Source of the DNA: Granulicella mallensis MP5ACTX8
GTDB lineage: Bacteria; Acidobacteriota; Terriglobia; Terriglobales; Acidobacteriaceae
Length of the DNA: 64,000 bases
Reading direction: 5' to 3'
Assembly: GCF_000178955.2 (NCBI RefSeq)
Contig: NC_016631.1
Location: forward strand, 5,332,001-5,396,000
The notes under the pieces were generated by a model. That model did no database searches and was not told where the DNA came from. It saw only the letters and a list, made by a program, of their open reading frames with translations. Both the position numbers and the translations under genes were made by a program. Shown in pieces: positions 9,532 through 52,900 of this stretch; positions within the stretch are counted from its first letter, which is position 1; each line of letters opens with the position of its first letter.

Positions 9532-9560
9532 ACCGCGCTAACCGCAGAAAGGAGTCGTAC

Positions 9561-14458: not shown

Positions 14459-14491
14459 AATCCAGGCAACAGGAAAGAGTAATAGGGCTAG

Positions 14492-15220
14492 ATGGAAATT
14501 CGGATTCGGGCAGCGGCATCGAGCGATGTAGGGCGGCAGCGCCGCACCAATGAGGACGCGTTCGGTTTCGATTTGGATCGCGGACTTTTTGTTGTGTGCG
14601 ATGGGGTCGGAGGGGCTAACGCGGGCGAGGTCGCCAGCCGGGCCGCCGTCGACTGCGTGCTCAGTCGCTTCCCCTATACCGTCCACGATCCCAATGCAGG
14701 AGGGCCGGAGCTGCAGCGCGCCATCCAGGCCGCGAACCGCGCGGTGTACAAGGCTGCCGCCCACGAACCGCTCTACCAGGGCATGTGCACGACCATCGTA
14801 GCCGCACACTTCGACGGCGCACGCATGTGGATCGCCCACGTGGGAGACAGCCGCGCCTATCTCCTGCGCAGCCAGTCGCTGCATCGCCTGACCGACGACC
14901 ACTCCCAACTGGCGCGTGTCCTGCGCGAGGGAGATCGCCACATCACGCCGGACCAGATGGCCCGCTGGGACAGCGTTTTGACCCAGGCCATCGGCGCTTC
15001 GGAGTTTGTCATGCCTGCCGTCACCATGGTGCAGGTCCACCTCGGAGACTGCTTTCTCTTCGCCACGGACGGCATCTGCAAATCTCTGTCCAACGGCGAG
15101 ATGCTCTCGCTGTTGCTCACCACTTCAACGCCGGAGCAGGCGTGCCAGCAGCTGGTCGATGCCGCCAATCGCTCCAGCGGGTACGACAACGCGACCTGCA
15201 TCGTAGTAGAGATCGACTAA
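14492..15220 (+). CDS. PP2C-family serine/threonine phosphatase (PppA/Stp-like)
   Basis: 242-aa cytoplasmic PP2C phosphatase with all metal-binding motifs: SDVGRQRRTNEDAF, VCDGVGGANAG, HVGDSRAYLL, LFATDGI and a final DNATCI. In many T6SS loci a kinase PpkA and phosphatase PppA set the phosphorylation state of an FHA protein and thereby assembly; here the FHA protein is the immediate upstream gene. The matching kinase is not in the window and may lie before position 1. The start has a modest AGGAAAGAG site about 15 bases ahead. Confidence 0.9.
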   Translation: MEIRIRAAASSDVGRQRRTNEDAFGFDLDRGLFVVCDGVGGANAGEVASRAAVDCVLSRFPYTVHDPNAGGPELQRAIQAANRAVYKAAAHEPLYQGMCTTIVAAHFDGARMWIAHVGDSRAYLLRSQSLHRLTDDHSQLARVLREGDRHITPDQMARWDSVLTQAIGASEFVMPAVTMVQVHLGDCFLFATDGICKSLSNGEMLSLLLTTSTPEQACQQLVDAANRSSGYDNATCIVVEID

Positions 15221-15335
15221 TGCCAACCACACGCTATCGATCAGCCTTCAATCCGTCGACCAGAGAAATACCACGACCGGCAACGCAGGCATTAAGCAAC
15301 GACTCGTAAGAACACCGACTCACCAGGAGATATCC

Positions 15336-31997: not shown

Positions 31998-32085
31998 GAC
32001 TGTCAATTCTGATCTCAAGTTCATCCGACTTCCCCATTGAAATTGGGAATCTATCTGTGAACAGATCACCGCAGAATTGGCTTTT

Positions 32086-32170
32086 CTCTTCCGCCAAATG
32101 CCACTAAGTTATTGATTCTATGGTGGCACAGCAGGATTCAAACCTACGACTTCCACCGCGTGAAGGTAGC
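32086..32170 (-). repeat. degenerate tRNA-Val 3' half with downstream flank
   Basis: Positions 32121-32170 match the 3' half of the intact tRNA-Val gene at 46567-46617 at 47 of 51 positions (one missing base plus three changes), in the same orientation. About 35 bases beyond the 3' end (32086-32120) also match 46531-46566 with several differences. The 5' half is missing, so it is not a working tRNA. The pair forms a direct repeat around the hydrogenase cluster. The rest of this 327-base gap holds no gene. Confidence 0.75.
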
Positions 32171-32324
32171 GTTGAGCCAGCCGGTTGCACATTCTATTAG
32201 CCGGTACAGTCGGGGAAAACCGGTATTTTTGGGCTAGTAACGATCATTTCTTCTCCTCCCGAACCCTCTCCCGTGAAAATAGCCTCTCGTCGCTGTCAAG
32301 AGCGGCATCACCTGCGATGATGAT

Positions 32325-34709
32325 GTGCAAGCTGAAACATCGCCGATGATGGATACGGATGCAACAACCCGGCCAAAAGCAATTACCAGGCTCCAGGTTC
32401 AGGTGCGTGGCATTGTGCAAGGTGTCGGCTTCCGCCCGTTCGTGTACAAACTAGCTCACAGGCTGGGCCTCTCGGGCCACGTCTTCAACTCCACCTCCGG
32501 CGTCACTATCGAAATTGAAGGCAGTAAACCCGCCCTCGATTCCTTTCTAAAGACGCTAAGAACGGAGCCACCTCAACTCGCAGATATACAAGAAATAACC
32601 GTCTCGCACATCGTTCCGTTTGGGGTCGCGGGCTTCTCCATCCTCCACAGCCGCGAGGAGGGAGGCGCAATGGCTCTCGTTCCAGCAGACGCAGGCACCT
32701 GCGACGCGTGCTGGCAGGACTTTAGTGATCCCAATAACCGCCGCTTTGGCTATCCCTTCACCAACTGTATCCATTGTGGTCCGCGCTACACCATCACCGA
32801 GGGCATCCCGTATGACCGCCCCAGCACCACTATGTCAAACTTCACGATGTGCAGCGCCTGTGCGGCTGAATACGCTGACCCCAATGATCGCCGCTTCCAT
32901 GCGCAGCCCAATGCCTGCAGCCTCTGTGGACCTTCACTCGCGCTTCTTCCGCGCGGTGCCGCCTTGCCGGAATCATTTACAGACACAGATGCACTCCCCA
33001 TTCTTCATCACGCGCGTGGCCTTCTTCGCGAAGGAAAAATTCTCGCTGTCAAAGGCCTGGGCGGCTTCCTGTTCGCGTGTGATGCCACTAACGAAACTGC
33101 GGTCGCCGAACTTCGCCGCCGCAAACACCGTCCGCATAAACCATTCGCTTTAATGGTCCGCGACATCGACGCTGCTCGTGCGTTGTGCGGAATCACCACC
33201 GAAGATGAAGCCGCTCTTCGTCACCTGCGCCGCCCCGTCGTCATCCTTCCACGGCGTCTCGATACGAATCAGGTGCCTGGCATCGGGCTTAGTGTCGCTC
33301 CAGGCAACAACACTTTGGGGATTATGCTTCCCTACACCCCTCTGCATTACCTGCTCTTCAGCGATTCACCTCAGAAAGACTCGGCATTCTCTGCATTGGT
33401 AATGACCAGCGGCAATATCAGCGAAGAGCCTATTGTGATCTCGAACATTGACGCACTTCTACAGCTCGACGGAGTCGCCGACTGGTTCCTTCTGCATAAC
33501 CGCGAGATTGCCACGCGCGTTGACGACTCCGTCGTCCGCACCTTCGAAGGCCGTGAGCGCGTCCTCCGCCGGTCCCGAGGCTTTACTCCCCAGGCCCTAT
33601 CTCTGGCATCCGCGAATGAATCGGTCCATCCATCGGTACTGGCCTTTGGCGCCGAACTGAAGAACACCTTCTGCCTCACCCGAGATGGCCATGCCATTCT
33701 TAGTCAGCACATCGGAGACCTGCAGAATTACGAGACCTTGCAGTTCTTCGAGGAAACGCTTGCGAAGATGAAGCGTCTCTTCCGGGTCACGCCGCAGGCC
33801 GTCGCTTACGATTTGCATCCGCACTATATGAGTACCCGCATGGCGCTGGCCTCCAGTATTGAGCGCAAGATCGCCGTGCAGCATCACCACGCCCACATCG
33901 CCAGCTGTATGGCGGAAAATCACTTGAGCGGCGAGGTCATTGGTGTAGCGCTTGATGGTACCGGTTACGGCACCGACGGCAAGATCTGGGGCGGAGAATT
34001 TTTTACCGCCAACCTCGGCAGCTTCAGCCGTCGTGCGCACCTTCGCTACGTCCCGCTCCCCGGCGGCGATGCCGCTGTCCGTCAGCCCTGGCGCATGGCG
34101 CTCAGCTACCTGCGCGATGCCTTCGGCCCCGAGGTCCCCGATCTTGCCTGCCTCCGAGCTATCCCTCTAAAGCAGCGCGATATCGTCAACGCGATGATCG
34201 CTAACCAGATCCAGACCGTCGAGACGTCCTCCTGCGGCCGGCTCTTCGACGCCGTCGCTGCACTTCTCAACCTTTTCTCGGAAGTCACCTTCGAAGGCCA
34301 GGCCGCCATCGCGCTTGAAAGCATTGCGCTCGCCGGTGTCACCGGAGGCTATGAATTCGACCTGCACGATGGCGAACCCATCACGATAGACCTCCGTACC
34401 ACGATCCTCGCCATCGTCAACGACCTGGCCGCCGGCAAACCCGCCGGTGAGATATCCGCCCGCTTTCACAACACCTTGAGCACAGTGATTGCTGCAACCT
34501 GCTGCCGGATCCGGGACCTCAGTGGACTGGATCGAGTCTGTCTTAGCGGAGGAAGCTTCCAAAACATGGTGCTTTTACGTCCGACAGTGGTACAGTTACG
34601 CCGCCACGGCTTTCAGGTTTTTCTGCACTCTATGGTTCCGGCAAACGATGGTGGCATCTCGCTGGGACAGGCAGCCATAGCCTGCGAACGAATCCGAACA
34701 GGAGCGTGA
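32325..34709 (+). CDS. hypF: carbamoyltransferase/maturation protein HypF
   Basis: 794 aa. HypF makes the CN ligands of the [NiFe] site from carbamoyl phosphate. Domain order: acylphosphatase (about 25-110, VRGIVQGVGFRPFVY), two zinc fingers (CDACWQDF...CIHC and CSACAAEY...CSLC), a YrdC-like domain (LREGKILAVKGLGGFLFACD), and the Kae1-like carbamoyltransferase (VAYDLHPHYMSTRMA, HHHAHIASCMAENH, GVALDGTGYGTDG). GTG at 32325 is in frame; ATG at 32346 is an alternative. First gene of the hydrogenase block, three bases before hypC. Confidence 0.95.
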   Translation: MQAETSPMMDTDATTRPKAITRLQVQVRGIVQGVGFRPFVYKLAHRLGLSGHVFNSTSGVTIEIEGSKPALDSFLKTLRTEPPQLADIQEITVSHIVPFGVAGFSILHSREEGGAMALVPADAGTCDACWQDFSDPNNRRFGYPFTNCIHCGPRYTITEGIPYDRPSTTMSNFTMCSACAAEYADPNDRRFHAQPNACSLCGPSLALLPRGAALPESFTDTDALPILHHARGLLREGKILAVKGLGGFLFACDATNETAVAELRRRKHRPHKPFALMVRDIDAARALCGITTEDEAALRHLRRPVVILPRRLDTNQVPGIGLSVAPGNNTLGIMLPYTPLHYLLFSDSPQKDSAFSALVMTSGNISEEPIVISNIDALLQLDGVADWFLLHNREIATRVDDSVVRTFEGRERVLRRSRGFTPQALSLASANESVHPSVLAFGAELKNTFCLTRDGHAILSQHIGDLQNYETLQFFEETLAKMKRLFRVTPQAVAYDLHPHYMSTRMALASSIERKIAVQHHHAHIASCMAENHLSGEVIGVALDGTGYGTDGKIWGGEFFTANLGSFSRRAHLRYVPLPGGDAAVRQPWRMALSYLRDAFGPEVPDLACLRAIPLKQRDIVNAMIANQIQTVETSSCGRLFDAVAALLNLFSEVTFEGQAAIALESIALAGVTGGYEFDLHDGEPITIDLRTTILAIVNDLAAGKPAGEISARFHNTLSTVIAATCCRIRDLSGLDRVCLSGGSFQNMVLLRPTVVQLRRHGFQVFLHSMVPANDGGISLGQAAIACERIRTGA

Positions 34710-34712
34710 AGC

Positions 34713-35036
34713 ATGTGTCTCGCCATTCCAGGGAAAGTCGTTGAGACCTTCGACAAGGGCGGCATGCTGATGGCGCGCGTGCAGTTTGGCGGCATCACCC
34801 GCGAGGCTTGTCTCGAATACGTTCCCGAGACCATCGTCGGCGATTATGTGCTGGTCCACGTCGGCTTCGCCATCAGCCGCATCGATGAGGCGGAAGCCGA
34901 ACGTACCTATCAGGCTCTTAAGGAGTTGGATCAGCTCACGGAGCTCGAGTCTCCTATCGTCGAAGAGGTGGAAGAGCCGCCGCCGGTTGACGAGCCTATC
35001 GACGAACCCGTGGTTGCCGGGGGTAAAACCCAATGA
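34713..35036 (+). CDS. hypC: hydrogenase maturation chaperone HypC, extended tail
   Basis: 107 aa. The N-terminal [10 protein letters not shown] with the essential Cys2 and the following [17 protein letters not shown] are diagnostic. HypC moves the Fe(CN)2CO unit between HypD and the large subunit. The C-terminal 30 residues ([17 protein letters not shown]) are an acidic, proline-rich tail beyond the usual 75-90 aa. It overlaps hypD by four bases. Confidence 0.95.
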
Positions 35037-36187
35037 AATACCTCGATGAATATCGTGACAGCGAAGTGGCCGCAAAGATCCTGGCCGAGATGCGCCGCAT
35101 CCAGACGCGTCCCTGGGTGCTCATGGAAGTCTGTGGCGGCCAGACGCACTCGATCGTCAAGCACGGCATCGATCATCTGCTGCCGCCGGGCATGGAGCTC
35201 GTCCACGGCCCCGGTTGCCCCGTCTGCGTCACGCCGCTTGAGATGATTGATAAAGCCCACGCCATCGCGCGCTGCCAGAATGTCATCTTCTGCTCCTTCG
35301 GCGATATGCTTCGGGTCCCTGGCTCGGACGGCGATCTCTTCACCATCAAATCTCTCGGCGGCGATGTCCGCATCGTCTACTCGCCGCTCGACTGTCTCAA
35401 GATCGCCCGCGCCAATCCCGACAAGCAGGTCGTCTTCTTTGCCATCGGCTTCGAGACCACCGCTCCCGCCAATGCGATGCTCGCCTGGCGCGCACGCGAG
35501 GACAAGGTGAACAACCTCTCCCTGCTTGTCTCGCATGTGCTCGTCCCGCCTGCGCTTGAAGCGATCCTCAGCGCGCCGGACAATCGAGTGAACGGTTTCC
35601 TGGGTCCCGGTCACGTCTGCGCTGTCATGGGTTACAGCGAGTACGAGCCCATCAGCGCCCGCTTCCATGTGCCTATCGTGATCACCGGTTTTGAGCCCAT
35701 CGATATCCTTCACGGCGTACTCATGACGCTGCAGCAACTTGAAGAAGGCCGCGCCACCGTTGAGAATCAGTACTCCCGCATCCTCGACCGCACCGGCAAT
35801 CTGCCCGCACAAAATCTCATCGGCAAGGTCTTCGAAGTCGGCGACCGCAAGTGGCGCGGTATCGGCTCCATTCCGCGGAGCGGCTATCGACTGCGCCCGG
35901 AGTTTGCCTCTCACGACGCCGAAAAGATCTTCGACGTCGCGGAGATCGCCACGCTCGAGCCTGCTATCTGTATCAGCGGCGAGATTCTGCGAGGCATCAA
36001 GAAACCTCACGATTGCCCCGCCTTCGGCACGCAGTGCTCTCCGCAGCGTCCGCTCGGGGCAACGATGGTTTCGGCGGAGGGCGCTTGCGCCGCCTACTAC
36101 GCCTATGGCCGGCATCTCAATCCGCAGGGCCTGAATGCGCCGCTGCATCAGATCGAGTCCGCGCCCGTCCCCGTAGTCCTTGGATAA
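35033..36187 (+). CDS. hypD: hydrogenase Fe-ligand assembly protein HypD
   Basis: 384 aa, standard HypD length. Motifs: [25 protein letters not shown] with the reactive cysteine pair, [19 protein letters not shown], and a C-terminal cluster-binding region with [13 protein letters not shown] and [10 protein letters not shown]. HypD assembles Fe(CN)2CO with HypC and HypE. It starts within the hypC stop (ATGA), so translation is coupled. Confidence 0.95.
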
Positions 36188-36201
36188 GAAAGCGAGACCG
36201 T

Positions 36202-37311
36202 ATGCCCATGGCGATCGCACCGGAGACCGTGAAGGTAAAGGAAGAAGAAAGAGTCTCGCCCGTCTTCGGCTCGTGTCCGCTGCCCATCTTCGATCACAAG
36301 CAGATCGTGCTCGGTCATGGCAGCGGTGGCAAGCTCACTTCCGAGCTCATCGAGAAGATCTTTCTTCCCGCCTTCAGCAATCCCATCCTCGACAAGCTGG
36401 ACGACCAGGCGTTACTCAACATCGGAGACACGCGTCTTGCGTTCACCACCGACTCCTTCGTCGTCACCCCCATCTTCTTCCCCGGAGGCGACATCGGCCG
36501 TCTCGCCGTGCACGGTACCGTCAACGATCTGGCCATGAGCGGTGCCCGCCCCCTCTACCTCTCAGCCGCGTTCATCCTGGAGGAAGGCCTGCGGGTTGAG
36601 GATCTCTGCCGCGTCGTCGAATCCATGCGGGCCGCCGCTGCCGATTCCGGGGTGCACTTCGTCACGGGGGACACCAAGGTCGTCAACCGGGGCAAGGGCG
36701 ACCAGATCTTCATTACCACTACCGGCATCGGCGTCGTGGAGGCGAACGTCAACATCTCCGCCAGCCGCGCCCAGCCTGGCGATTGCATCCTCCTGAGCGG
36801 AACCATCGGCGATCATGGCATGGCCATCATGTCGCAGCGTGAGGGCTTGGAGTTCGAGAGCGAGATCGCCAGCGACTGTGCCTCTCTCCACGATCTCGTC
36901 GCACAGATGCTAGCCACACCCTCAGAGACGACAGACTTCCTTCACTGCCTGCGAGACCCGACGCGCGGCGGCGTTGCAACCACGCTCAATGAAATCGCTA
37001 AAGCCAGCCACTCCGGCATGCTTCTGCACGAGCAGTCCATCCCCGTGCGGGAGTCCGTCCGCGGCGCCTGCGAGATCCTCGGGCTAGACCCGCTTTACGT
37101 CGCCAACGAGGGCAAGCTGCTAGCCGTTGTGGCGCCCGAGATGGGCGAAGCTGTCCTCGCCCGTATGCGCCAGCATCCCCTTGGGCGGGACGCTGCGATC
37201 ATTGGCGAAGTCGTCGCCACCCATCCGGGCATGGTGTTGATGAAGACCGGTATCGGCGGTACCCGTGTGCTTGACGTCATGTTCGGCGAGCAGCTGCCGC
37301 GCATCTGTTGA
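36202..37311 (+). CDS. hypE: hydrogenase maturation protein HypE
   Basis: 369 aa from the ATG at 36202, 14 bases after hypD; the frame is open further upstream but overlaps hypD. HypE converts the carbamoyl group passed by HypF to thiocyanate on its C-terminal cysteine. The C-terminus ends PRIC, as required. Other motifs: GHGSGGKLTSELI, TTDSFVVTP, GDIGRLAVHGTVNDLAMSGA, RDPTRGGVATTLNEIA. Confidence 0.95.
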   Translation: MPMAIAPETVKVKEEERVSPVFGSCPLPIFDHKQIVLGHGSGGKLTSELIEKIFLPAFSNPILDKLDDQALLNIGDTRLAFTTDSFVVTPIFFPGGDIGRLAVHGTVNDLAMSGARPLYLSAAFILEEGLRVEDLCRVVESMRAAAADSGVHFVTGDTKVVNRGKGDQIFITTTGIGVVEANVNISASRAQPGDCILLSGTIGDHGMAIMSQREGLEFESEIASDCASLHDLVAQMLATPSETTDFLHCLRDPTRGGVATTLNEIAKASHSGMLLHEQSIPVRESVRGACEILGLDPLYVANEGKLLAVVAPEMGEAVLARMRQHPLGRDAAIIGEVVATHPGMVLMKTGIGGTRVLDVMFGEQLPRIC

Positions 37312-37619
37312 GGAGTTTATTGTCAGATCGCATGGATGCAATCAACAAAAACTGCATGCAACAAGAAATAATTTGAAATGCTTTGACATACCGAATGGCA
37401 AGGCGTAGGTTAGAGCCCGCTTGAAATTTGCCGTTCTTGCTCCTTTGAAGTTCCAGTCGGAATGTACCTTCTGCTGATGTACCTTTTCTCAGGAAGCTTG
37501 CATCGTAACTCTTACGGCCTGTAGCCCGGCAAGCCACGATCCCGGACATTCGTATGCTGTAAAGCCCCGCCCAATGGGGTGCACTCCCGCACGCATTTAG
37601 TACCGCGAAGGAGGATGCA
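37312..37619 (+). promoter_or_regulatory. promoter region ahead of hydrogenase structural genes
   Basis: A 308-base gap that starts a new transcription unit. TTGACA (37383-37388) is followed after 17 bases by TAGGTT (37406-37411), a plausible -35/-10 pair that leaves a leader of about 200 bases. GGAGG sits just before hhyS. No open frame here is credible. Confidence 0.4.
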
Positions 37620-38672
37620 ATGGCTGAACAAGCAAGCACGATCACTAAGGCTCCAGCTGTCTCCGATATACACATTGTCTGGATCACTGCCGGTCTGGGT
37701 TGCGACGGGGACAGCGTCTCCATTACCGCAGCCGAGCAGCCCAGCATCGAAGACGTTCTCCTGGGAGCTATTCCCGGCCTGCCCAAGGTCCACCTGCACA
37801 ACCCCGTTCTTGCTTACGAGAACGGCGATGATTTTATGAAGTTCTACTACGACGCCGAAAAGGGTTTGCTCGATCCTTTTGTGTTGGTCGTCGAAGGCTC
37901 CATCCCTAACGAGAAGATCAAAGAAGAGGGCTACTGGGCCGCCGTCGGCACTAACCCCGAGACAGGCCAGCCGATCACTACCTGCGAATGGATCGATCGC
38001 CTCGCGCCGAAGGCTCTCGCGGTAATCGGTGCAGGAACTTGCGCAACCTATGGCGGAATTCACGCCATGGCGGGCAATCCTACTGGCTGCATGGGCCTCG
38101 CCGATTATCTCGGCTGGGACTGGCGCTCCAAGGCCGGTTTGCCCATCGTCAACGTGCCTGGCTGTCCGGTGCAGCCCGACAACTTCATGGAGACCGTACT
38201 CTATCTGCTCTATCAAGTCGCTGGCCTCGCGCCTATGATTCCTCTGGACAAACAGCTCCGTCCGACATGGCTCTTCGGCAAGACGGTGCATGAAGGCTGC
38301 GACCGAGGTTCCTATTATGAGCAGGGCGACTTTGCTCACAACTATGGCTCCTCCAAATGCCTCGTCAAACTTGGCTGCTGGGGCCCGGTGGTCGATTGCA
38401 ATGTGACCAAGCGCGGCTGGATGCGCGGTATCGGCGGCTGTCCGAATGTTGGCGGTATCTGCATCGGCTGCACCATGCCCGGATTCCCCGACAAGTTCAT
38501 GCCGTTCATGGATGAGCCGCCGGGCGGCACGCTCTCTTCCACCATCATCGGTACCTATGGGCGCATGATCCGCACCCTTCGCGGCATCACCAACACGACG
38601 CTCAACAAAGAGCCGAAGTGGCGCCATTCAAGGCCAGAGCTCACCACCGGCTATCACCCCACGACCTACTAA
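37620..38672 (+). CDS. hhyS: [NiFe] hydrogenase small subunit, group 1h type
   Basis: 350 aa. Carries the FeS clusters that pass electrons from the active site. The N-terminus has no Tat signal, and near it C28-D-G-D31 replaces the usual CxxC of the proximal cluster: Asp for Cys is the hallmark of actinobacterial group 1h (former group 5) enzymes, tied to oxygen tolerance. Other motifs: AGTCATYGG, NVPGCPVQPDNFMETV, and a C-terminal run of cysteines (KCLVKLGCWGPVVDC, GGCPNVGGICIGC). Such enzymes take up H2 at atmospheric levels. GGAGG precedes the ATG. Confidence 0.93.
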   Translation: MAEQASTITKAPAVSDIHIVWITAGLGCDGDSVSITAAEQPSIEDVLLGAIPGLPKVHLHNPVLAYENGDDFMKFYYDAEKGLLDPFVLVVEGSIPNEKIKEEGYWAAVGTNPETGQPITTCEWIDRLAPKALAVIGAGTCATYGGIHAMAGNPTGCMGLADYLGWDWRSKAGLPIVNVPGCPVQPDNFMETVLYLLYQVAGLAPMIPLDKQLRPTWLFGKTVHEGCDRGSYYEQGDFAHNYGSSKCLVKLGCWGPVVDCNVTKRGWMRGIGGCPNVGGICIGCTMPGFPDKFMPFMDEPPGGTLSSTIIGTYGRMIRTLRGITNTTLNKEPKWRHSRPELTTGYHPTTY

Positions 38673-38698
38673 TTAAAACGGAACGCAAGGATAATTCC

Positions 38699-40501
38699 AT
38701 GGCGACGATTCCTGAAACTCTGGCCCACGAAGCACAGAAAAAGCGCACTCTTGTCGAGATGAACTGGGATCCGATCACCCGCATCGTCGGGAGCCTCGGT
38801 ATCTTCACCAAGATCGACTTCCAGAACCGTGAAGTCGCCGAGTGCTACAGCACCTCGTCCATCTTTCGCGGGTACTCTGTTTTCATGAAGGGGAAGGATC
38901 CGCGCGATGCCCACTTCATCACCAGCCGCATCTGCGGCATCTGCGGAGACAACCACGCGACCTGCGCTGTTTACGCGCAGAACATGGCCTTCGGCGTGCG
39001 CCCGCCCGCGTTAGCCGAGTGGATCATCAACCTCGGCGAAGCGGCCGAGTACATGTTTGACCACAACATCTTTCAGGACAATCTCGTCGGCGTCGACTTC
39101 TGCGAGCAGATGGTGAAGGAGACCAATCCCGGCGTCTGGGACAAAGCCCAGTCCACTCCTTCGCCCAACGCGGACAAGCATGGCTATAAAACCATCGCCG
39201 ACATCATGACGGCGCTCAACCCCTTCACCGGCACCTTCTATCGTGAGACGCTCGCGATGAGCCGCCTCACCCGCGAGATGTTCTGCCTCATGGAAGGTCG
39301 CCACGTTCATCCGTCTACCCTCTATCCGGGCGGCGTCGGCACCGTGGCCACCATTCAGCTCTTCACCGACTACCTGGTTCGCCTGATGAAGTATGTCGAG
39401 TTCATGAAGAAGGTTGTGCCGCTACACGATGACCTCTTCGACTTCTTCTACGAAGCTCTTCCCGGCTATGAGAAGGTCGGCCTGCGCCGCACGCTGCTGG
39501 CCTGTTGGGGCTCCTACAACGATCCCGATTATTGCGACTATCAGTACAAGAACATGGACGCGTGGGGCAAGAAGATGTTCGTCACCCCCGGCGTCGTCGT
39601 GGACGGCAAGCTCGTTACGAATAACCTGGTCGACATCAACCGCAACATCCGCATCCTGCTTGGCAGCTCCTACTACGAGGACTGGCAGGGCAAAGAGACC
39701 TTCGTCAAGAAGGACCCGCTTGGCAATCCGATCGACCAGAACCATCCCTGGAACCAGACGACTACGCCGCGTCCGCAGAAGCGCGACTTCAACGGCAACT
39801 ACACCTGGGTTATGTCGCCGCGCTGGTATGACGAACGTACCGGCGATCATCTCGCGCTCGACACTGGCGGCGGCCCCATCGCGCGCCTCTGGTCCACTGC
39901 GCTCTCCGGCCTGGTCGATATCAACTACGTGAAGGCCACCGGTCACAGCGTCAAGATCAATCTTCCCAAAACCGCGCTTCTTCCCGAGGTTGAATTCGAG
40001 TGGAAGATCCCGCAGTGGAGCAATACCATCGAGCGCGATCGCGCTCGCACCTACTTCCAGGCCTACGCCGCTGCCACCGCCCTGCACTTCGTTGAGAAGG
40101 CCCTCGCCGAACTGCACGCTGGCCGCACCGCCACCTGGTCTGAGTTCAAAGTTCCCGATGACGCTATCGGTTGCGGATTCCACGAGGCGGTACGCGGCGT
40201 GCTTTCGCATCATGTTGTCATTCGCGACGGCAAGATCGCCAATTATCACCCCTATCCGCCTACTCCGTGGAATGCAAATCCGCGCGATATCTATGGCACG
40301 CCCGGCCCCTATGAAGATGCGGTGCAGAACACGCCGCTCTTCGAAGAGAACGGTCCCGACAAGTTCAAGGGAATCGATATCATGCGAACAGTTCGCAGCT
40401 TCGATCCCTGTCTCCCCTGCGGCGTGCATATGTATGTCGGCGACGGCCGCACCATTGAGGTCCAACACTCGCCCATGTTTGGGGCTGCGGGGAACAAATA
40501 A
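38699..40501 (+). CDS. hhyL: [NiFe] hydrogenase large subunit, group 1h type
   Basis: 600 aa from the ATG at 38699 (26 bases after hhyS). The four nickel ligands are present: RICGICGD (C79, C82) near the N-terminus and DPCLPCGVH (C571, C574) near the C-terminus. The 23 residues after H577 form the tail removed by the maturation protease. The WDPITRIVGSLG and GRHVHPSTLYPGGVG segments are typical of uptake hydrogenases. Its stop overlaps the start of the next gene (TAATG), so expression is coupled. Confidence 0.95.
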   Translation: MATIPETLAHEAQKKRTLVEMNWDPITRIVGSLGIFTKIDFQNREVAECYSTSSIFRGYSVFMKGKDPRDAHFITSRICGICGDNHATCAVYAQNMAFGVRPPALAEWIINLGEAAEYMFDHNIFQDNLVGVDFCEQMVKETNPGVWDKAQSTPSPNADKHGYKTIADIMTALNPFTGTFYRETLAMSRLTREMFCLMEGRHVHPSTLYPGGVGTVATIQLFTDYLVRLMKYVEFMKKVVPLHDDLFDFFYEALPGYEKVGLRRTLLACWGSYNDPDYCDYQYKNMDAWGKKMFVTPGVVVDGKLVTNNLVDINRNIRILLGSSYYEDWQGKETFVKKDPLGNPIDQNHPWNQTTTPRPQKRDFNGNYTWVMSPRWYDERTGDHLALDTGGGPIARLWSTALSGLVDINYVKATGHSVKINLPKTALLPEVEFEWKIPQWSNTIERDRARTYFQAYAAATALHFVEKALAELHAGRTATWSEFKVPDDAIGCGFHEAVRGVLSHHVVIRDGKIANYHPYPPTPWNANPRDIYGTPGPYEDAVQNTPLFEENGPDKFKGIDIMRTVRSFDPCLPCGVHMYVGDGRTIEVQHSPMFGAAGNK

Positions 40502-41094
40502 TGGCCGCCTCTGCTGTTGTCATTGAAAGCATCGGAGAGAACCAGTCTGCTTCGGCTGCGTCGCCGCAACCTCGCAAACCCAGTGAGTTCAAGGTTCAAA
40601 CCGATCGCGTCGAAAAGCTCGCAGCCCGTCTCGAACAGGCCAACGATCCCGAGACCCGCGCCACGGCGCTTGAACTCGTGCAGTCCGTCATCGAATTGCA
40701 TGGTGCCGCATTGCAGGCTCTCATCGACCGCTGCATCGCTACCGAAGAAGGCGAACGCATCCTCAATGAGGCCCTGCAGGACGATCTCGTCTCCAGCATG
40801 TTCCTTCTGCACAACCTGCATCCCGACGATCTCGAAACCCGCGTTCTGCGCGGCATTGAATCCGTACGCCCGTATCTGCAGGAGCATGGTGGCGACTGCG
40901 AGCTTGCCGGACTGGACAACGGCATTGTGCGCCTGCGTCTTCACGGTAACTGCGGCAGTTGTCCTTCGTCCTCGCTCACTCTCAAAAACGCCGTCGAAGA
41001 GGCACTCTTTCAGGCCGCGCCGGATATCAAAGAGATTATTGCGGAAAACTCGGCAGCCAAACCTGCCACCTCAAACCTTGTGATGATCCAGTAA
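40501..41094 (+). CDS. NifU C-terminal-like Fe-S scaffold protein
   Basis: 197 aa. The C-terminal domain (about 118-185) is NifU-like: RPYLQEHGGDCELAGL and the cluster-binding C151-G-S-C154. The first 110 residues are helical with no assigned domain. NifU-like proteins are a usual companion of group 1h hydrogenases and probably deliver the Fe-S clusters of the small subunit, which is inferred. It starts in the hhyL stop codon. Confidence 0.88.
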   Translation: MAASAVVIESIGENQSASAASPQPRKPSEFKVQTDRVEKLAARLEQANDPETRATALELVQSVIELHGAALQALIDRCIATEEGERILNEALQDDLVSSMFLLHNLHPDDLETRVLRGIESVRPYLQEHGGDCELAGLDNGIVRLRLHGNCGSCPSSSLTLKNAVEEALFQAAPDIKEIIAENSAAKPATSNLVMIQ

Positions 41095-41103
41095 AGGAGA
41101 CCT

Positions 41104-41283
41104 ATGGCACACGACGACGTAAAGCCGGACGCCCCTTCGCATACGCCTGGCACACCTCGAGGCGAGAACCGCGCCGCGCCTCTCAAGACTCGGATGACGC
41201 GCACGGCAAAGGATGCCACAGGGATCAATGTTGCCGATCGCAAGCCGATTCATCCGCTGATGCCGAATCTTCCTCCAGCGTAA
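41104..41283 (+). CDS. small protein (59 aa) in the hydrogenase operon
   Basis: ATG with AAAGGAG seven bases ahead, 59 codons, ending 21 bases before the DUF5947-like gene. The product is polar and proline/threonine-rich, with no membrane segment: MAHDDVKPDAPSHTP at the start and IHPLMPNLPPA at the end. Position, frame and ribosome site make it credible; family not recognised. Confidence 0.65.
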   Translation: MAHDDVKPDAPSHTPGTPRGENRAAPLKTRMTRTAKDATGINVADRKPIHPLMPNLPPA

Positions 41284-41304
41284 CGAGCAAAGCCAGGGCA
41301 TGCC

Positions 41305-41964
41305 ATGAGTGAAGCCTTCAATGAGACACCGGAACGCGACGCGGCGTCTTCGTTCCTGCGCCAGTTTGCCCGCCGGCGCACGTCCGCGGAACCGGAAGAG
41401 CGCTGCGAACTCTGTAGCACCGCGCTTAATCCTCTGCATCAGCACCTTCTCGATCCAAAGAAACGGCAGATCCTTTGCGCCTGCGACGGGTGCGCCATTC
41501 TCTTCTGCGGTCAGGCGGGAGCGCACTATCTTCGCGTGCCGCGCCGTCTCCGCAGCCTCATCGACTTCCAGATCAGCGATCTGCAGTGGGAGGCGTTGAT
41601 GGTTCCCATCAACCTCGCCTTCTTCTATCGCGACACCGCCGCCGACAAGGTCTTCGCAATGTATCCCAGCCCGGCTGGCGCCACCGAATCTCTTCTCACA
41701 CTCGATTCCTGGCAGGAGATCGTTGCGCAGAATCCGGATCTCCAGACCATGGAGGCTGATGTCGAAGCACTTCTCGTCAACCGGGTCGGCAACAGTTCGG
41801 AGTACTATCTCGTGCCGATCGATGAATGTTATCGCCTGGTTGGAATCATCCGCATGCATTGGCGCGGACTATCCGGCGGCACCGACGTGTGGAAAGAGAT
41901 TCAGCGGTTTTTTGACGACCTGCGCGCACGCAGTACAGAGAGCCGGAGGCCCGTGCATGCCTGA
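41305..41964 (+). CDS. DUF5947-like protein with rubredoxin-like double CxxC
   Basis: 219 aa. Cysteines C34/C37 (CELC) and C60/C63 (CDGC) make a rubredoxin-type iron or zinc site in the N-terminal third; the rest is a mixed alpha/beta domain with LGVP-type strands ending near GTDVWKEIQRFFDDL. Such proteins are known as neighbours of group 1h hydrogenases but have no proven function; an electron-transfer or maturation role is inferred. The family name is from memory of such clusters. It overlaps the next gene by eight bases. Confidence 0.75.
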   Translation: MSEAFNETPERDAASSFLRQFARRRTSAEPEERCELCSTALNPLHQHLLDPKKRQILCACDGCAILFCGQAGAHYLRVPRRLRSLIDFQISDLQWEALMVPINLAFFYRDTAADKVFAMYPSPAGATESLLTLDSWQEIVAQNPDLQTMEADVEALLVNRVGNSSEYYLVPIDECYRLVGIIRMHWRGLSGGTDVWKEIQRFFDDLRARSTESRRPVHA

Positions 41965-42625
41965 GCTTCAGTTCCAGATCGAGGGCGCAGAGGCGGTGAA
42001 GCACGCGGCTACGCCCTTGCTTGCACTCAAGCTGCGCATCACGAATCTTCCCGCGAGCGAGCCCATCCATACCCTCACGCTCAAGTGCCAAGTCCAGATC
42101 GAGCCGGCAAAGCGTCGCTATCTTCCGCCCGAGCAGGAAAAACTCGCCGACCTCTTCGGCGAACCTTCGCGCTGGAGCCGTACCGTCAAGCCGCTGCACT
42201 GGATGAACACCAGCGTCGCCGTGCAGGGATTTACCGGCAGCGTTCTCGTTGACCTCGAACTTCCGTGCACCTTCGACTTCAACGTCGCTTCCACCAAGTA
42301 CTTCCACGCGCTCGAAGCGGGTGATATCCCCCTCTGCGTCATGTTCAGCGGAACGGTCTTCTATCAGTCACAACAAGAGACGCTGCAAGTGGCGCAGATA
42401 CCGTGGGATCGTGAGGCTTATTTCAAACTTCCTGTCTCCATTTGGAAGGAGATGATGGACGCACACTTTCCTAACAGCGCCTGGCTCAGTCTGCGCCGCG
42501 ACACTTTCGAACAGCTCTACGACTACAAGGTTCGTAATGGTCTGCCCACATGGGAGCAGGCCATCGAGCGTCTGATCTCCTCGAACGAGGTCGTCGCTGA
42601 GAGACCTGACGAGGTGACGGCATGA
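41957..42625 (+). CDS. DUF6084-like protein of hydrogenase cluster
   Basis: 222 aa from the ATG at 41957, which overlaps the previous gene. Beta-rich, with PELQFQIEGAEAVKHAATP at the start, CQVQIEPAKRRY and a C-terminal helix region (SWLSLRRDTFEQLYDYK-like, here NSAWLSLRRDTFEQLYDYK). The gene order (DUF5947-like, then this) matches that seen with actinobacterial hydrogenases. Function unknown. It overlaps the following gene by four bases. Confidence 0.72.
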   Translation: MPELQFQIEGAEAVKHAATPLLALKLRITNLPASEPIHTLTLKCQVQIEPAKRRYLPPEQEKLADLFGEPSRWSRTVKPLHWMNTSVAVQGFTGSVLVDLELPCTFDFNVASTKYFHALEAGDIPLCVMFSGTVFYQSQQETLQVAQIPWDREAYFKLPVSIWKEMMDAHFPNSAWLSLRRDTFEQLYDYKVRNGLPTWEQAIERLISSNEVVAERPDEVTA

Positions 42626-43941
42626 ACTTCGAGAACGCTGAAAAGATCGCCGCCGCCATCCTCTACGAGGGATACATCCTCTACCCCTATCGCCCTACCG
42701 CGATTAAAAATCGCCAGCGCTGGAACTTCGGCACGCTCTATCCGCGCGTCTACGCCGCAGCTCAAAGGCCGAAGGAGCCCTTTCGCCTGCAAGCCGAGTG
42801 CATCGTCCTCGCGGAGGAAGGCGCGACTCTCGACATCAAGATCAGCTTTCTCCAACTCATTCGCCAGGGCCGCGCCCTCGACGGTACGGAGGATGCAGCC
42901 GCCCTCGCCGATCCCTCCCTCGCATGGGAAGAAGCGGTCGAGCGCACCTCCGAGCATCCACAGCTTCTCCTTGGCGATCTTCTCGCCCAACCTCAGCAGC
43001 TCACGCTTCATCTCGGAGCAGCCACACTCCCGGGAGATCAGGTCGTCGCACCTCAGACAGATCTCCAGGCACTCTTTACCGTGCGTGTCGAGGCTCTCGA
43101 GTCCGGTGCCATGAAGCTTCACATTGAACTGGATAACATCACGCCACTGCGCAGCGAAGCCGCCGCCAAACGTGACGAAGCGCTTCCGCACTCACTCGTC
43201 TCCGCGCACATGCTTCTCGGTCTCACCGGTGGCGAGTTCGTCTCCCTGCTCGATCCGCAGGAGAGCTATAGCGGGGCCGTCGCCACCTGTAGCAATATCG
43301 GCGTCTTTCCTGTTCTTGTCGGCACCGAGCCGAAGCGCACCATGATGTTGTGTTCGCCGATCATCCTCTACGATTATCCGCAGATTGCGCCTGAAAGCGG
43401 CGGTGATTTCTTCGATGGCACCGAGATGGACGAGATGCTCACCCTCCGCGTCCTCACCCTGACCGATGCGGAGAAAGAGGAGATGCGCAATGGCGATCCA
43501 CGCGCTCGCCAGATCCTTGAGCGCACGGAAAATATGACACCCGAAGCAATGCTCAAAGCGCATGGTGTTGTTCGCTCCTTGCGCCAGATTCGCGAGATCC
43601 CTGCCAACGAACCCTTCGGAGAATGGAATCCCTTTGCGGAAGCCAAGGCGCCGCCGGAGAGCGTTACCGTCTTCGGAGTGGCACTTCGCGTCGGCGACCG
43701 TGTGCGCATCTGGCCGCAGAAGAACGCCGACATCATGGACATGGCACTCGAGGGCAAGGTCGCCGTCATCGAAGCGATCGAGCAGGACTTCGAAGACCAG
43801 GTACAGTTCGCCGTTGTACTCGATGACGATCCCGGCCGCGAGTTCGGCATGATGCGTCAGCCTGGGCATCGCTTCTTCTATTCGCCCGAAGAGGTTGAAC
43901 CGGTCAGCGAAGCGTTTGCTACGGAGAGAGAACTCAAATGA
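42622..43941 (+). CDS. 439-aa protein of unknown function in hydrogenase operon
   Basis: No signal peptide or membrane segment. N-terminus AILYEGYILYPYRPTAIKN; C-terminal 80 residues form a small beta domain (VFGVALRVGDRVRIWPQKN and VQFAVVLDDDPG), similar in outline to SH3/KOW-like folds. No catalytic motif found. It is joined to both neighbours by four-base overlaps, so it is made together with them. Probably a maturation or assembly factor, on context alone. Confidence 0.75.
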   Translation: MNFENAEKIAAAILYEGYILYPYRPTAIKNRQRWNFGTLYPRVYAAAQRPKEPFRLQAECIVLAEEGATLDIKISFLQLIRQGRALDGTEDAAALADPSLAWEEAVERTSEHPQLLLGDLLAQPQQLTLHLGAATLPGDQVVAPQTDLQALFTVRVEALESGAMKLHIELDNITPLRSEAAAKRDEALPHSLVSAHMLLGLTGGEFVSLLDPQESYSGAVATCSNIGVFPVLVGTEPKRTMMLCSPIILYDYPQIAPESGGDFFDGTEMDEMLTLRVLTLTDAEKEEMRNGDPRARQILERTENMTPEAMLKAHGVVRSLRQIREIPANEPFGEWNPFAEAKAPPESVTVFGVALRVGDRVRIWPQKNADIMDMALEGKVAVIEAIEQDFEDQVQFAVVLDDDPGREFGMMRQPGHRFFYSPEEVEPVSEAFATERELK

Positions 43942-44468
43942 CGGGCACAACTTTAGTTGCGGGCGTTGGCAACATCTTCCTCGGCGATGACGCCTTCGGT
44001 GTCGAGGTAGCGCGCTCTCTCGCTCGCCGCACTCTTGCGCCCGACATCCTCGTGAAGGACTTCGGCATTCGCGGCTTCGATCTCGCATACGCACTGCTCG
44101 AGCCCTGGGACGCCGTCATCCTCGTCGATGCACTTCCGCGCAACGATGCTCCGGGCACGCTCTACATCGTTGAACCCGACCTTTCGCAGATGGGCGATCC
44201 CTCCACTCCGGGGATGGAGATGAATCCACACAGCATGGATCCGGTGCGCGTTCTCAATCTTGCGCTCACGATGGGACCGATCACAGCCCCCGTCTTTGTC
44301 GTCGGCTGCGAGCCCCACGACTTCGGTGATGAATTGGAGGGCCGTATGGGCCTCTCCGCGCCGGTGCAAGCCGTAGTAGAAGAAGCGTCCAACATGGTGG
44401 AAGGACTTGTCGCAAGGATCAGGGCAGACGCAACCACCATACAACCGCCGGTATTGGCGGCAATGTAG
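43938..44468 (+). CDS. hydrogenase maturation protease (HyaD/HybD family, M52)
   Basis: 176 aa. The peptidase that trims the C-terminal tail of the large subunit after nickel insertion. The N-terminal LVAGVGNIFLGDDAFGVEV holds the metal-binding Glu/Asp region (GN..L.DD.. GVE), VDALP carries the second acidic ligand, and MNPHSMDP the His. Its product is needed for the 23-residue tail of HhyL. It overlaps the 439-aa gene by four bases. Confidence 0.92.
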   Translation: MTGTTLVAGVGNIFLGDDAFGVEVARSLARRTLAPDILVKDFGIRGFDLAYALLEPWDAVILVDALPRNDAPGTLYIVEPDLSQMGDPSTPGMEMNPHSMDPVRVLNLALTMGPITAPVFVVGCEPHDFGDELEGRMGLSAPVQAVVEEASNMVEGLVARIRADATTIQPPVLAAM

Positions 44469-44495
44469 TAACAAGAGAGGTAATGGAGGAAGTCC

Positions 44496-44600
44496 ATGAC
44501 AGAGAAAATTTTCTTAGGCGTGGTCGGATTAGTCATTGTCGTCATCGCGGTAGCAACGGCTCCGGATCTGATTCGCTACATGAAGATCCGCTCTATGTAA
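44496..44600 (+). CDS. 34-aa single-helix membrane protein
   Basis: ATG with GGAGGAAG ahead, a hydrophobic stretch of about 18 residues (FLGVVGLVIVVIAVATAP) and the tail PDLIRYMKIRSM. The last segment resembles DUF6893-type small proteins found near group 1h hydrogenases. Small helical proteins can anchor or stabilise membrane-bound enzymes; the soluble hydrogenase here lacks its own anchor, so a docking role is plausible but unproven. Confidence 0.7.
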   Translation: MTEKIFLGVVGLVIVVIAVATAPDLIRYMKIRSM

Positions 44601-44618
44601 AAACCGGAAGGCCGGCAG

Positions 44619-44966
44619 ATGCACGAACTTTCGATTGCCATCAGCATGATCGATCAGATCGCCGAGGAGTCCGCAAGCCGCGGAGGCCTGGACGTGGAGG
44701 CTGTCCATCTGCGTCTCGGTGTCTTCGCCGGCGTGGACAAGAATGCTCTACTCTTTGCCTATGAACTTGCCTGTGAAGGAACTCCTTTACAGGGTTCACG
44801 CCTGATCATCGAAACGGTTCCCCTGCTGGTCTACTGCCCTGTCTGTCGGCAGGAGCGCACGCCGCCCTCCGTGTACCAGATCTGCTGTCCGGAGTGTCTT
44901 GCGCCGACACCGGAGATTCTTACCGGCCGCGAGATGGAAGTCGCATCCCTGGAGGTTGCCGCATGA
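44619..44966 (+). CDS. hypA: nickel-delivery metallochaperone HypA
   Basis: 115 aa. N-terminal MHELSIAISMI holds the nickel-binding His2; two CxxC pairs, CPVC and CPEC, form the zinc site. HypA hands nickel to the large subunit with HypB. It overlaps hypB by four bases. Confidence 0.95.
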   Translation: MHELSIAISMIDQIAEESASRGGLDVEAVHLRLGVFAGVDKNALLFAYELACEGTPLQGSRLIIETVPLLVYCPVCRQERTPPSVYQICCPECLAPTPEILTGREMEVASLEVAA

Positions 44967-45658
44967 GTACGCGCATGGTCGAGGTCCGGGCAAAGGTGAT
45001 GAAGCAGAACGATCTGCTCGCACGCGCACTTCGCGAACGCTTTCAGCAGCAGAGCACCTGCGTCATCGGTCTCGTCTCCAGTCCCGGCTCGGGTAAGACG
45101 GCCTTTCTCGAAAAGGTCTTAGCCGGACTCGCTGGCGATCATGGTGTTGCCGCCCTCGTTGGCGATCTCGCTACCGAAAACGATGCAGCCCGCCTGCAAC
45201 GGGCCACACCGAACGTCAAACAGATCACCACCGGCACGATCTGTCACCTCGACGCTTCGATGATCGAGAGGGCGTTGGAGGACTGGCATCTCGACAACGT
45301 CGATTTCCTGTTCATTGAAAACGTGGGTAACCTCGTCTGCCCCTCCAGCTACGACCTCGGCGAGGAACTGCGCTTCGTTCTGCTCTCCGCCACCGAGGGC
45401 GAAGACAAACCGCTGAAGTATCCCACCATCTTCAACAGCTCTGACGTCGCCATCATCACAAAGATGGATATGGCAGACGCCGCCGAGTTCGATCTCGCCA
45501 CCGCACGACGCAATATTGAAAGCGTTCGCCCCGGCATGAAGATCTTCGAGGTCTCCTCGAAGACCGGTCAGGGCATGGGAGAGGTCTTCAACTTTCTCCG
45601 CGCACAGCTTGCGCGCCCGCGTACGACCGCACCCCTGCTTGAGGAGGCCGCGCTATGA
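44963..45658 (+). CDS. hypB: GTPase HypB, short form without His-rich N-terminus
   Basis: 231 aa from the ATG at 44963 (GGAGG ahead). P-loop SSPGSGKTAFLEK, GDLATENDAARL, ENVGNLVCPSSYD and TKMD follow the HypB pattern. The nickel-storing His/CXXCGC N-terminus of many HypB proteins is absent, so nickel supply must rely on HypA and the adjacent transporter. It overlaps both neighbours by four bases. Confidence 0.93.
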   Translation: MSTRMVEVRAKVMKQNDLLARALRERFQQQSTCVIGLVSSPGSGKTAFLEKVLAGLAGDHGVAALVGDLATENDAARLQRATPNVKQITTGTICHLDASMIERALEDWHLDNVDFLFIENVGNLVCPSSYDLGEELRFVLLSATEGEDKPLKYPTIFNSSDVAIITKMDMADAAEFDLATARRNIESVRPGMKIFEVSSKTGQGMGEVFNFLRAQLARPRTTAPLLEEAAL

Positions 45659-46392
45659 CCTCGCCCTTGCAGATTACGCTTATCTCCTGCGCCATTCTTG
45701 GCTTTCGCCATGGCTTCGATTACGACCACATCGCCGCCATCTCAGACATCACAAGTGTGCAGACCAAGACCTCCACGGCCATGCGCCTCGGCCTACTCTA
45801 TGCGCTCGGTCATGCCACAATGATCGCTCTGCTTGGCAGCATCGTCATTCTTTTTCAGCTCTCTCTGCCGCAGCGCATGGACTCATGGGCTGAGCGACTT
45901 GTAGGTGTCACACTCATCATCCTCGCCGTCTACGTCATGGGCAGTCTTGTCTGGGGAAACGCGCGCGCCGTGCCGCCTTCGCGGGCTGCCATTATCATCC
46001 GCTGCTACCGCAAACTCCGCCGTAAGATCTGGCCCTCCGGCGCCGCCAGCGATTCGCGCACCGACGATGACGTCAACTACACCGGTCCCGTCGCCTTCGG
46101 CATCGGCCTCATCCACGGACTTGGAGCAGAAACACCTAGCCAGCTCGCACTATTTCTCCTCGCGGCAAATCTAGGCGGCATCGCTAAAGGCGCCGGCGGC
46201 ATGGCCATGTTCCTTGCCGGGCTGCTCATCATGAACACCCTGATGACCGCTTCTGCCACTGGTCTTTTTCATGGGGCTGTCCCACATCCTCGAGTCATGC
46301 GACTCTTCGTCGGCCTCACTGCGGTCTACAGCTTCGTTGTCGGCTGCATCTTTCTGCTTGGTTCCTCCGGCCACCTTCCTCAACTAAGCTAA
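45655..46392 (+). CDS. nickel/cobalt transporter-like membrane protein
   Basis: 245 aa with about six membrane helices. The first helix carries GFRHGFDYDHIAAI, a variant of the NiCoT signature (HX4DH). Later helices include LGLLYALGHATMIALLG and GIGLIHGLGAETPSQL. It is somewhat shorter than typical NiCoT (about 330 aa). It is the last gene of the hydrogenase run and would supply nickel. A HupE-type assignment is also possible. Confidence 0.82.
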   Translation: MTSPLQITLISCAILGFRHGFDYDHIAAISDITSVQTKTSTAMRLGLLYALGHATMIALLGSIVILFQLSLPQRMDSWAERLVGVTLIILAVYVMGSLVWGNARAVPPSRAAIIIRCYRKLRRKIWPSGAASDSRTDDDVNYTGPVAFGIGLIHGLGAETPSQLALFLLAANLGGIAKGAGGMAMFLAGLLIMNTLMTASATGLFHGAVPHPRVMRLFVGLTAVYSFVVGCIFLLGSSGHLPQLS

Positions 46393-46530
46393 AAAGCAAA
46401 GCAGATGGTTGGGACGGTCTACGCGATGCTCACATCAGCGGCGACACAGCAGCAGGCAGGGTAGGTTTGAGCCGGTAAAAACCGGCGCATTTGATGCCAG
46501 CCGGTAAAAGTTTGGCAAATGGCATTAAAT

Positions 46531-46617
46531 CTCTCTCTTGCCAATGCCGCTAAGCTGTTGATTTGATGGTGGGCACAGCAGGATTCGAACCTACGACTTC
46601 CACCGTGTGAAGGTGGC
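46531..46617 (-). repeat. right copy of the tRNA-Val direct repeat
   Basis: The 3' half of the tRNA-Val gene plus about 35 bases beyond it, matched by the degenerate copy at 32086-32170. Between the two copies lies the hydrogenase cluster. A GCCGGT/ACCGGC hairpin (46471-46486) lies in the same flank. Confidence 0.7.
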
Positions 46618-46641
46618 ACTCTACCGCTGAGTTATGCGCCC
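46567..46641 (-). tRNA. tRNA-Val (anticodon CAC)
   Basis: Read on the minus strand: acceptor GGGCGCA pairs with TGTGCCC (one G-U), anticodon stem CCACC/GGTGG with loop TTCACAC, T arm GTAGGTTCGAATCCTGC, and an encoded CCA end. All cloverleaf arms are present. Its 3' end faces the hydrogenase cluster. Confidence 0.93.
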
Positions 46642-52225: not shown

Positions 52226-52900
52226 TTACCTGATGCTGCTTGGAATGTTATGGCGATCGAGATTTTCAGGCGAAAACCGGTATGACATTCGCCCTGGGCT
52301 CAGCTCATCCTGGGGTTCTAAATCTTCAATAGGTTTAAGTTCAAGCCCGGTGAGTCCAGAGTCCTTCAGGATCTGGGCAGTGTCAAACTTAGTAAAGATG
52401 TAGCTGGGAAGAGGCCAGACCATGAAAATATCCGATCCATCCCACTGACTCCAATCAACTAATTTTGTCCAGTCCTTAACGCCGCTGTACTTTAACATGC
52501 CACAGGCCGAGCACTCGTAAGTTAAATGCACACCAGATTCCGGAGCTGCGATTCCACCCCAACCGGTCGCGAAAAACTCCACATATTCATCTGTATAAAT
52601 CTGCTTTCCGCTTGTCACTACAGCAGGACGCGTGGAAAGTCCAGTTAGCCCCATCGAATTCAGCGCGGCAGCCACATCCTTGCGTACAAGGCATTCCGAG
52701 TACCAACTCCAAATAAAATCGTTCTTGAGTGCCGCCTTGGCGAAATTGACGTTCAGCTCAGTTAATCGAGCGCCCGCTCTTTGGTGGCCTGGATCAACTG
52801 GACAAATAACCGACGCAAGGTCTGTGGACTTGTTCCAAGTACCACGTAAGTCCCACGAGTCGGCTTGTAAACGAAAAACTTCTCTTTTCACTGTTTCCAT
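52226..52900 (-). CDS. likely immunity protein for the RHS toxin (CxxCG type)
   Basis: 224 aa. It overlaps the RHS stop by one base (TGATG) on the same strand, the usual layout of toxin/immunity pairs. A CSACG motif sits near residue 130, and a lone cysteine in VICPVDPGHQR sits near residue 32. Similar double-CxxCG proteins (SitI6 family of myxobacteria) protect against the matching toxin. The match is by motif and context, not by search. No export signal, consistent with neutralisation in the cytoplasm. Confidence 0.7.
   Translation of the reverse strand: METVKREVFRLQADSWDLRGTWNKSTDLASVICPVDPGHQRAGARLTELNVNFAKAALKNDFIWSWYSECLVRKDVAAALNSMGLTGLSTRPAVVTSGKQIYTDEYVEFFATGWGGIAAPESGVHLTYECSACGMLKYSGVKDWTKLVDWSQWDGSDIFMVWPLPSYIFTKFDTAQILKDSGLTGLELKPIEDLEPQDELSPGRMSYRFSPENLDRHNIPSSIR

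Follow-up and report, generated by a model that had tools for sequence, protein, structure and literature searches.

In the genome of the acidobacterium Granulicella mallensis MP5ACTX8 (6,237,577 bases in one contig) we analyzed a 64-kb stretch of DNA, called the window in the following (G000:C1:5332001-5396000, where G000 denotes MP5ACTX8 and G003 its sister strain G. mallensis X5P3), in which a [NiFe]-hydrogenase cluster lies between a tRNA-Val(CAC) gene and a partial copy of this gene. We consider it fairly probable that the cluster is cargo acquired by horizontal transfer and located in the remnants of an integrative element, probably a conjugative one, that targets the 3' half of tRNA-Val(CAC). 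This matters as the trait is flanked by the ends of an element family that can be named and of which relatives have intact members.

Attachment scar and element remains at tRNA-Val

According to ARAGORN the tRNA-Val is the single tRNA in the 64-kb window, which is free of any tRNA array, and its 3' end faces the cluster as the initial annotation of this stretch had stated. With the intact tRNA at one end and a copy of its 3' part in the same orientation at the other, the cluster is bounded like an island. The features of the tract are as follows:

32085 to 32170, minus strand, attR scar composed of the copy of tRNA-Val nt 25-75 (32121-32170) and about 35 bases of 3' flank
32171 to 32236, no strand, element-end sequence directly inward of attR (53/64 positions shared with the element end beside the G005 fragment)
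32237 to 32309, no strand, spacer between element end and hydrogenase block, outside the block common to G003
32310 to 46405, plus strand, hydrogenase block, present as one unit also in X5P3 at another locus (95.6% identical to G003:C3:268453-282546)
46402 to 46464, plus strand, tyrosine integrase relic, last 20 codons and stop (QMVGTVYAMLTSAATQQQAG, compared with the G002 and G005 ends; DNA match)
46465 to 46566, no strand, attL side, element DNA from the integrase relic to the tRNA 3' end (DNA matches to G002, G005 and G003)
46567 to 46641, minus strand, intact tRNA-Val(CAC), the attachment target

The fragment spans the tRNA from nt 25 to its 3' end with one base lost in the acceptor arm. 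As a direct repeat (32125-32170 and 46572-46617) the two copies are identical at 43/46 ungapped positions, and with the flank (32085-32170) they match at 86%. The other strand of window 1-46530 gave 26/46 at most and 60 order-1 random sequences of equal length 28/46 at most, so that 43/46 is not due to chance. A 3'-half copy with about 35 bases of shared flank had been noted before; the copy itself holds, but a CTAAGTTGTTGATT-like part of the shared flank also adjoins tRNA-Val in several other genomes of the genus and therefore not all of these bases can be counted as evidence of integration. The whole genome contains seven matches to the tRNA-Val region, among them two other tRNA genes (anticodons GAC and TAC) and three short fragments without a tRNA. 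A tRNA-Val fragment at G000:C1:2617312-2617341, with a flank similar to the G001 and G011 element ends, lies 7 kb from a broken P4-type integrase (G000:C1:2610285-2610542, locus L190; open frame of 137 aa), which is the sole PF13356 match in the genome.

The 3' side of tRNA-Val was inspected in 23 of the 28 genomes of the genus (all except G006, G011, G013, G015 and G027). Four of them, G001, G005, G020 and G021, carry a full-length integrase (397-432 aa) at the tRNA 3' end with its C-terminal end towards the tRNA, and the Pfam domains Phage_integrase and Phage_int_M were identified in the proteins from G001 and G005. An integrase reduced to 82 codons is located at tRNA-Val in G002, and G012 shows recombinase-like pieces that are merely 24-28% alike. 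In G001, G020 and G021 the integrase reading frame extends into the tRNA gene, and its last residues (GTAGFEPTTSTV) are therefore read from the opposite strand of the tRNA. Beside the G001 integrase lie the genes of a type IV secretion system (T4SS) encoding a coupling protein, VirB8, TrbL/VirB6, TrbI, CagX, CagE/TrbE and a T2SSE ATPase, and 89 kb away this contig has a copy of the tRNA 3' half, oriented like the tRNA itself; an integrated conjugative element has just this architecture. The fragments of four genomes, namely G001, G005, G011 and MP5ACTX8 itself, all leave the tRNA sequence at nt 25-27, and the tRNA-Val 3' flanks of the other examined genomes differ among themselves.

Just inside the fragment, the window matches the G005 element end with a score of 56, the best of 1000 shuffles reaching 51 (0/1000 as good), and shows no likeness to the ends of G001 and G011. 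At the opposite end no integrase had been visible to the initial annotation, a statement that has to be corrected as the relic listed above places integrase remains beside the tRNA. Relic and flank together are identical at 140/159 positions to G002, at 120/149 to G005 and at 116/146 to the sister strain G003, contrary to the order given by the sigma factor beside the tRNA, which shares 98% identity with that of G003 and 74% with that of G002; a turnover of element ends at tRNA-Val would explain such a G002-like relic. Between block and tRNA there is the relic alone and no intact integrase, as a functional integrative conjugative element would have, and the listed genes from 32325 to 46392 include no conjugation genes, all of them being hydrogenase-related or without a known family. 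As integrase-bearing elements sit at this tRNA in the genus and the window fragment shares their breakpoint and the G005-type end, the earlier interpretation of the repeat as the outcome of integration at a tRNA 3' end is borne out, and its identity as an attachment scar is well supported.

The hydrogenase block and its distribution

Judged by its protein families, the block comprises the genes of an uptake [NiFe]-hydrogenase together with those for its maturation. A large and a small subunit occur together with maturation genes, as is typical for a group 1h cluster; the assignment to group 1h follows passages in PMC5900883 and PMC8027828, and a passage of PMC5900883, from which the name hhyS is also taken, calls the gene order of the G. 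mallensis hydrogenase very distinct. The genes are:

32325 to 34709, plus strand, hypF (TIGR00143 above cut-off)
34713 to 35036, plus strand, hypC (TIGR00074, PF01455)
35033 to 36187, plus strand, hypD (TIGR00075, PF01924)
36235 to 37311, plus strand, hypE (TIGR02124)
37620 to 38672, plus strand, [NiFe]-hydrogenase small subunit, hhyS (PF14720, PF01058)
38696 to 40501, plus strand, [NiFe]-hydrogenase large subunit, hhyL (PF00374 on the longer reading 38618-40501)
40501 to 41094, plus strand, NifU-like domain protein (PF01106)
41305 to 41964, plus strand, DUF5947 protein (PF19372)
41957 to 42625, plus strand, DUF6084 protein (PF19562 on the longer reading 41723-42625)
42622 to 43941, plus strand, conserved open reading frame with no Pfam or NCBIfam match, retained in the clusters of relatives
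43938 to 44468, plus strand, hydrogenase maturation protease (TIGR00072, PF01750)
44619 to 44966, plus strand, hypA (PF01155 above cut-off, just under the NCBIfam cut-off)
44966 to 45658, plus strand, hypB (PF02492, CobW/HypB/UreG)
45655 to 46392, plus strand, NicO-like nickel transporter (PF03824, 24.2 bits, under the cut-off of 27.7)

HhyL was matched in nine of the 28 genomes of the genus, at full strength solely in G000 and G003, the other seven matches being partial and 28-39% identical; G009, with an RpoB 98.5% identical to that of MP5ACTX8, lacks this hydrogenase. Within the family HhyL occurs in 42/300 genomes from 21/79 genera (E up to 1e-150), and relatives from several phyla are among the best 80 of 589 genome loci. 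The nearest relative of the MP5ACTX8 protein belongs to another genus (G166 of genus g70, 96.0% identity), and the HhyL of its congener G144 is 82.2% identical. In genus g35 two genomes carry an HhyL of 88% and four one of 83% identity, at RpoB identities of 91.7-92.3% (RpoB was missing in six of 30 genomes, including G166 and G162, and that of G067, at 21.3%, was not used). The HhyL tree (37 rows; without G266, G225, G234, G261 and G084) groups G000, G003 and G166, and the AlaRS tree groups G166 with G144 (AlaRS was missing in one of 20 genomes). In the complete g35 genome G266, hhyL lies in two overlapping pieces (G266:C1:569567-571365, locus L183), which suggests a frameshift. Approximately unbiased (AU) tests, from which the AlaRS of G001 with its branch length of 10 was excluded, reject g35 (p 4e-17) and g70 (p 0.004) as single HhyL clades as well as G000, G003 and G166 as an AlaRS clade (p 0.0004; a group chosen from the HhyL tree). 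Of the 33 loci compared, 10 have their maturation genes upstream of the structural genes, and G003 and, as far as its contig reaches, G166 belong to these 10 (the G166 and G162 genomes are 77% complete, and the G166 contig was checked through its flank). In G144 and four g35 genomes, hypCDE lie downstream.

The cluster is thus a patchy cargo whose history is unlike that of the species, as expected for an island. Since it is present in two of 28 genus genomes with its nearest relative in another genus and against the AlaRS tree, it looks horizontally gained, and this reading is well supported. The comparison of hhyL with the species history that the initial annotation had recommended gave a departure of the HhyL tree from the AlaRS tree, and distribution, trees, AU tests and gene order all point to its idea that a whole trait was gained by transfer. 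Transfer of the trait is also probable because the cluster lies between the worn ends of a tRNA-inserting mobile element. An element-borne cluster would help to explain the scattered occurrence of the trait in the family and makes its transfer testable.

The sister strain and competing explanations

At the tRNA-Val site of X5P3 the left flank ends at window position 32084, the right flank restarts at 46410 and 14 other bases lie between them. The search for an empty site proposed earlier thus had a mixed outcome, as cluster and fragment are indeed absent from the sister's site, but this site is a worn element-end scar and not pristine. The block is found at the C3 locus of X5P3 given above, where its hypF side is adjoined by a tRNA-Val-like fragment of 35 bases (89%, E 1.2e-5) followed by DNA resembling the G005 element end (51/62; 0/1000 shuffles as good), and its other side by a fragment of a P4-type integrase (PF13356). 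The place in MP5ACTX8 that matches the right side of this locus has no cluster, and the left flank of the C3 locus, sought in G000 2260000-2322000 only, gave two short matches. The tRNA neighbourhood of G009, sought in G000 and G003, gave only weak matches elsewhere. The synonymous divergence of the two strains amounts to 0.172 (0.154-0.185) in the block, compared with 0.201 (0.182-0.222) in nine flank genes, and because the two values are near each other the block was either present in the common ancestor or arrived near that time, and it has since changed its place. X5P3 also has two tRNA-Val-like fragments 14.8 kb apart (G003:C10:195704-195737 and 210499-210530; loci L119 and L120), the first of them with a flank that by eye looks like a G001-type element end.

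We propose that an element carrying the hydrogenase cluster near its attR end would have integrated at tRNA-Val, and that a later deletion would have removed the transfer genes and all of the integrase but the last 20 codons, fixing the cluster in place. In X5P3, where the block lies elsewhere and is again adjoined by an end from this family of elements, it would have moved again or come in twice. The element at tRNA-Val is likely, though unproven, to be the vehicle of the cluster. Several observations weigh against this interpretation. No intact element with a hydrogenase was found, and the sister's tRNA site lacks both fragment and block while the block sits elsewhere. The element ends of the two strains show no clear likeness to each other (39/52, with 45/1000 shuffles as good), and a separate comparison of them was likewise not significant; each is G005-like, but for G000 the score exceeds the best shuffle only narrowly (56 against 51). 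Across genomes, a tRNA or tmRNA gene adjoins the tract in three of 35 cluster loci scanned (G166, G054 and G219). Nor does the block look foreign: with 59.2% G+C compared to 57.9% for the genome, and a third-position G+C (GC3) of 0.715 compared to 0.694 in seven flank genes, foreign composition was dropped as an argument, and the base-composition check suggested by the initial annotation was uninformative.

A different history, which we consider rather unlikely, is that the element provided the place of entry but did not deliver the block: an old element scar would have existed at tRNA-Val and the 14.1-kb block would have entered it later by illegitimate recombination, for example from a C3-type locus. 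The block, with identical ends (32310 and 46405), does occur elsewhere in X5P3, which retains the scar without the block, and a block divergence so close to that of the flank genes may mean that the block predates the strain split. Against this stands the X5P3 copy itself, which also lies beside a same-family element end and a P4-type integrase fragment, so that both known places of the block are element remains. Delivery by the element is hence the likelier, yet unproven, course compared to later movement into the scar, and arrival by this very insertion is likely rather than certain because X5P3 has the block elsewhere and only the scar here.

Vertical inheritance from an ancestor of the genus, with loss in most members and a merely coincidental tRNA scar next to the cluster, would agree with the spread of the hydrogenase over 21 genera of the family and with a G000-G003 block divergence at about genome level. 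It is nevertheless very improbable in view of the two cluster-bearing genomes among 28, the absence from the close relative G009, the conflict between HhyL and AlaRS trees and the different gene orders of G166 and its congener G144. The initial annotation had offered a tandem tRNA-Val duplication followed by decay of one copy as its alternative. The fragment is indeed a decayed copy of the tRNA and has its orientation, but it starts where the element-borne fragments of three other genomes start, it runs into element-end DNA, and the intact tRNA has an integrase relic next to it; on these three grounds the duplication fits poorly, is hardly credible and was rejected.

A general link between the cluster and tRNA genes was likewise rejected, given the three adjoining cases among 35 loci. 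In G166 (L152, 1386-3541) the cluster lies beyond the 3' end of a tmRNA gene, and the flank on the other side is 83-93% identical to the congener G144 and stops being so 7 bases past the tmRNA gene; G144 has an exact 28-base copy of the tmRNA 3' end elsewhere. The end of the G166 cluster lies another 1.7 kb along, within a NicO match of 41 residues, and a weaker match between G166 and G003 continues to base 1930. It may represent a further landing next to an RNA gene, although a single case carries little weight. In G054 (L166, 16519-16748) a tRNA-Pro(TGG) precedes hypF by about 150 bases, and it is the 5' and not the 3' end of this tRNA that faces the cluster, and the tRNA-Arg call in G219 is doubtful because it lies inside hypD. 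More speculatively, the use of trace H2 in acidobacteria could be transmissible, with the unit carried near attR of tRNA-Val conjugative elements and left behind at two different loci in the two sister strains; the clusters of other genera, for example that of G166 past a tmRNA 3' end at a synteny break with its congener, might then be further landings.

Window surroundings and comparison with known systems

Elsewhere in the window, a cluster resembling type VI secretion genes by eye (TssF-, TssK-, ClpV- and VgrG-like) extends from 5055 to 16895, and rightward of it the G+C content drops from 0.65 to 0.52. A minus-strand protein of 2116 aa with YD/RHS-like repeats, again by eye, is encoded at 52226-59250, and a 224-aa open reading frame after it could be its partner.

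According to a passage in PMC8027828, soil acidobacteria are counted as atmospheric H2 oxidizers, and the survey PMC5900883 states in the part consulted that the role of mobile elements in bringing metabolism-relevant genes to acidobacteria is unclear. The Pre_GI table, in the portion seen, lists the strain with the figure 26. Within the literature searched, that is listings, abstract openings and passages, we found no description of the MP5ACTX8 locus as an island, and nothing on conjugative elements of acidobacteria or on islands in Granulicella.

The closest counterpart within the genus is the G001 conjugative element, which shares with the window the tRNA, the tRNA breakpoint and a related integrase. 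It differs in its intact integrase, its T4SS genes, the absence of a group 1h hydrogenase and its element end, that of the window being G005-like. Hydrogenase clusters on conjugative elements are already known, as passages of PMC2864759 describe: these integrative conjugative elements likewise carry hydrogenase and hyp genes, but they contain other hydrogenase types, live in other hosts and possess a T4SS, and the entry of hyp and hox genes into the islands is ascribed there to insertion sequence elements. In Hydrogenovibrio SP-41 (PMC6501319, in the passages available) a whole hydrogenase cluster also lies in a strain-specific predicted genomic island, although the host is unrelated and these passages describe no tRNA attachment repeat. 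HhyL relatives are also present on 12 of 72,556 plasmid records, as in Cupriavidus necator H16 (NC_005241.1), with 72-81% identity for such plasmid-borne group 1h hydrogenases, which in contrast to that of the window are not part of a tRNA-integrated element. What G. mallensis adds to these known cases is a new host group, a new element family and a new trait.

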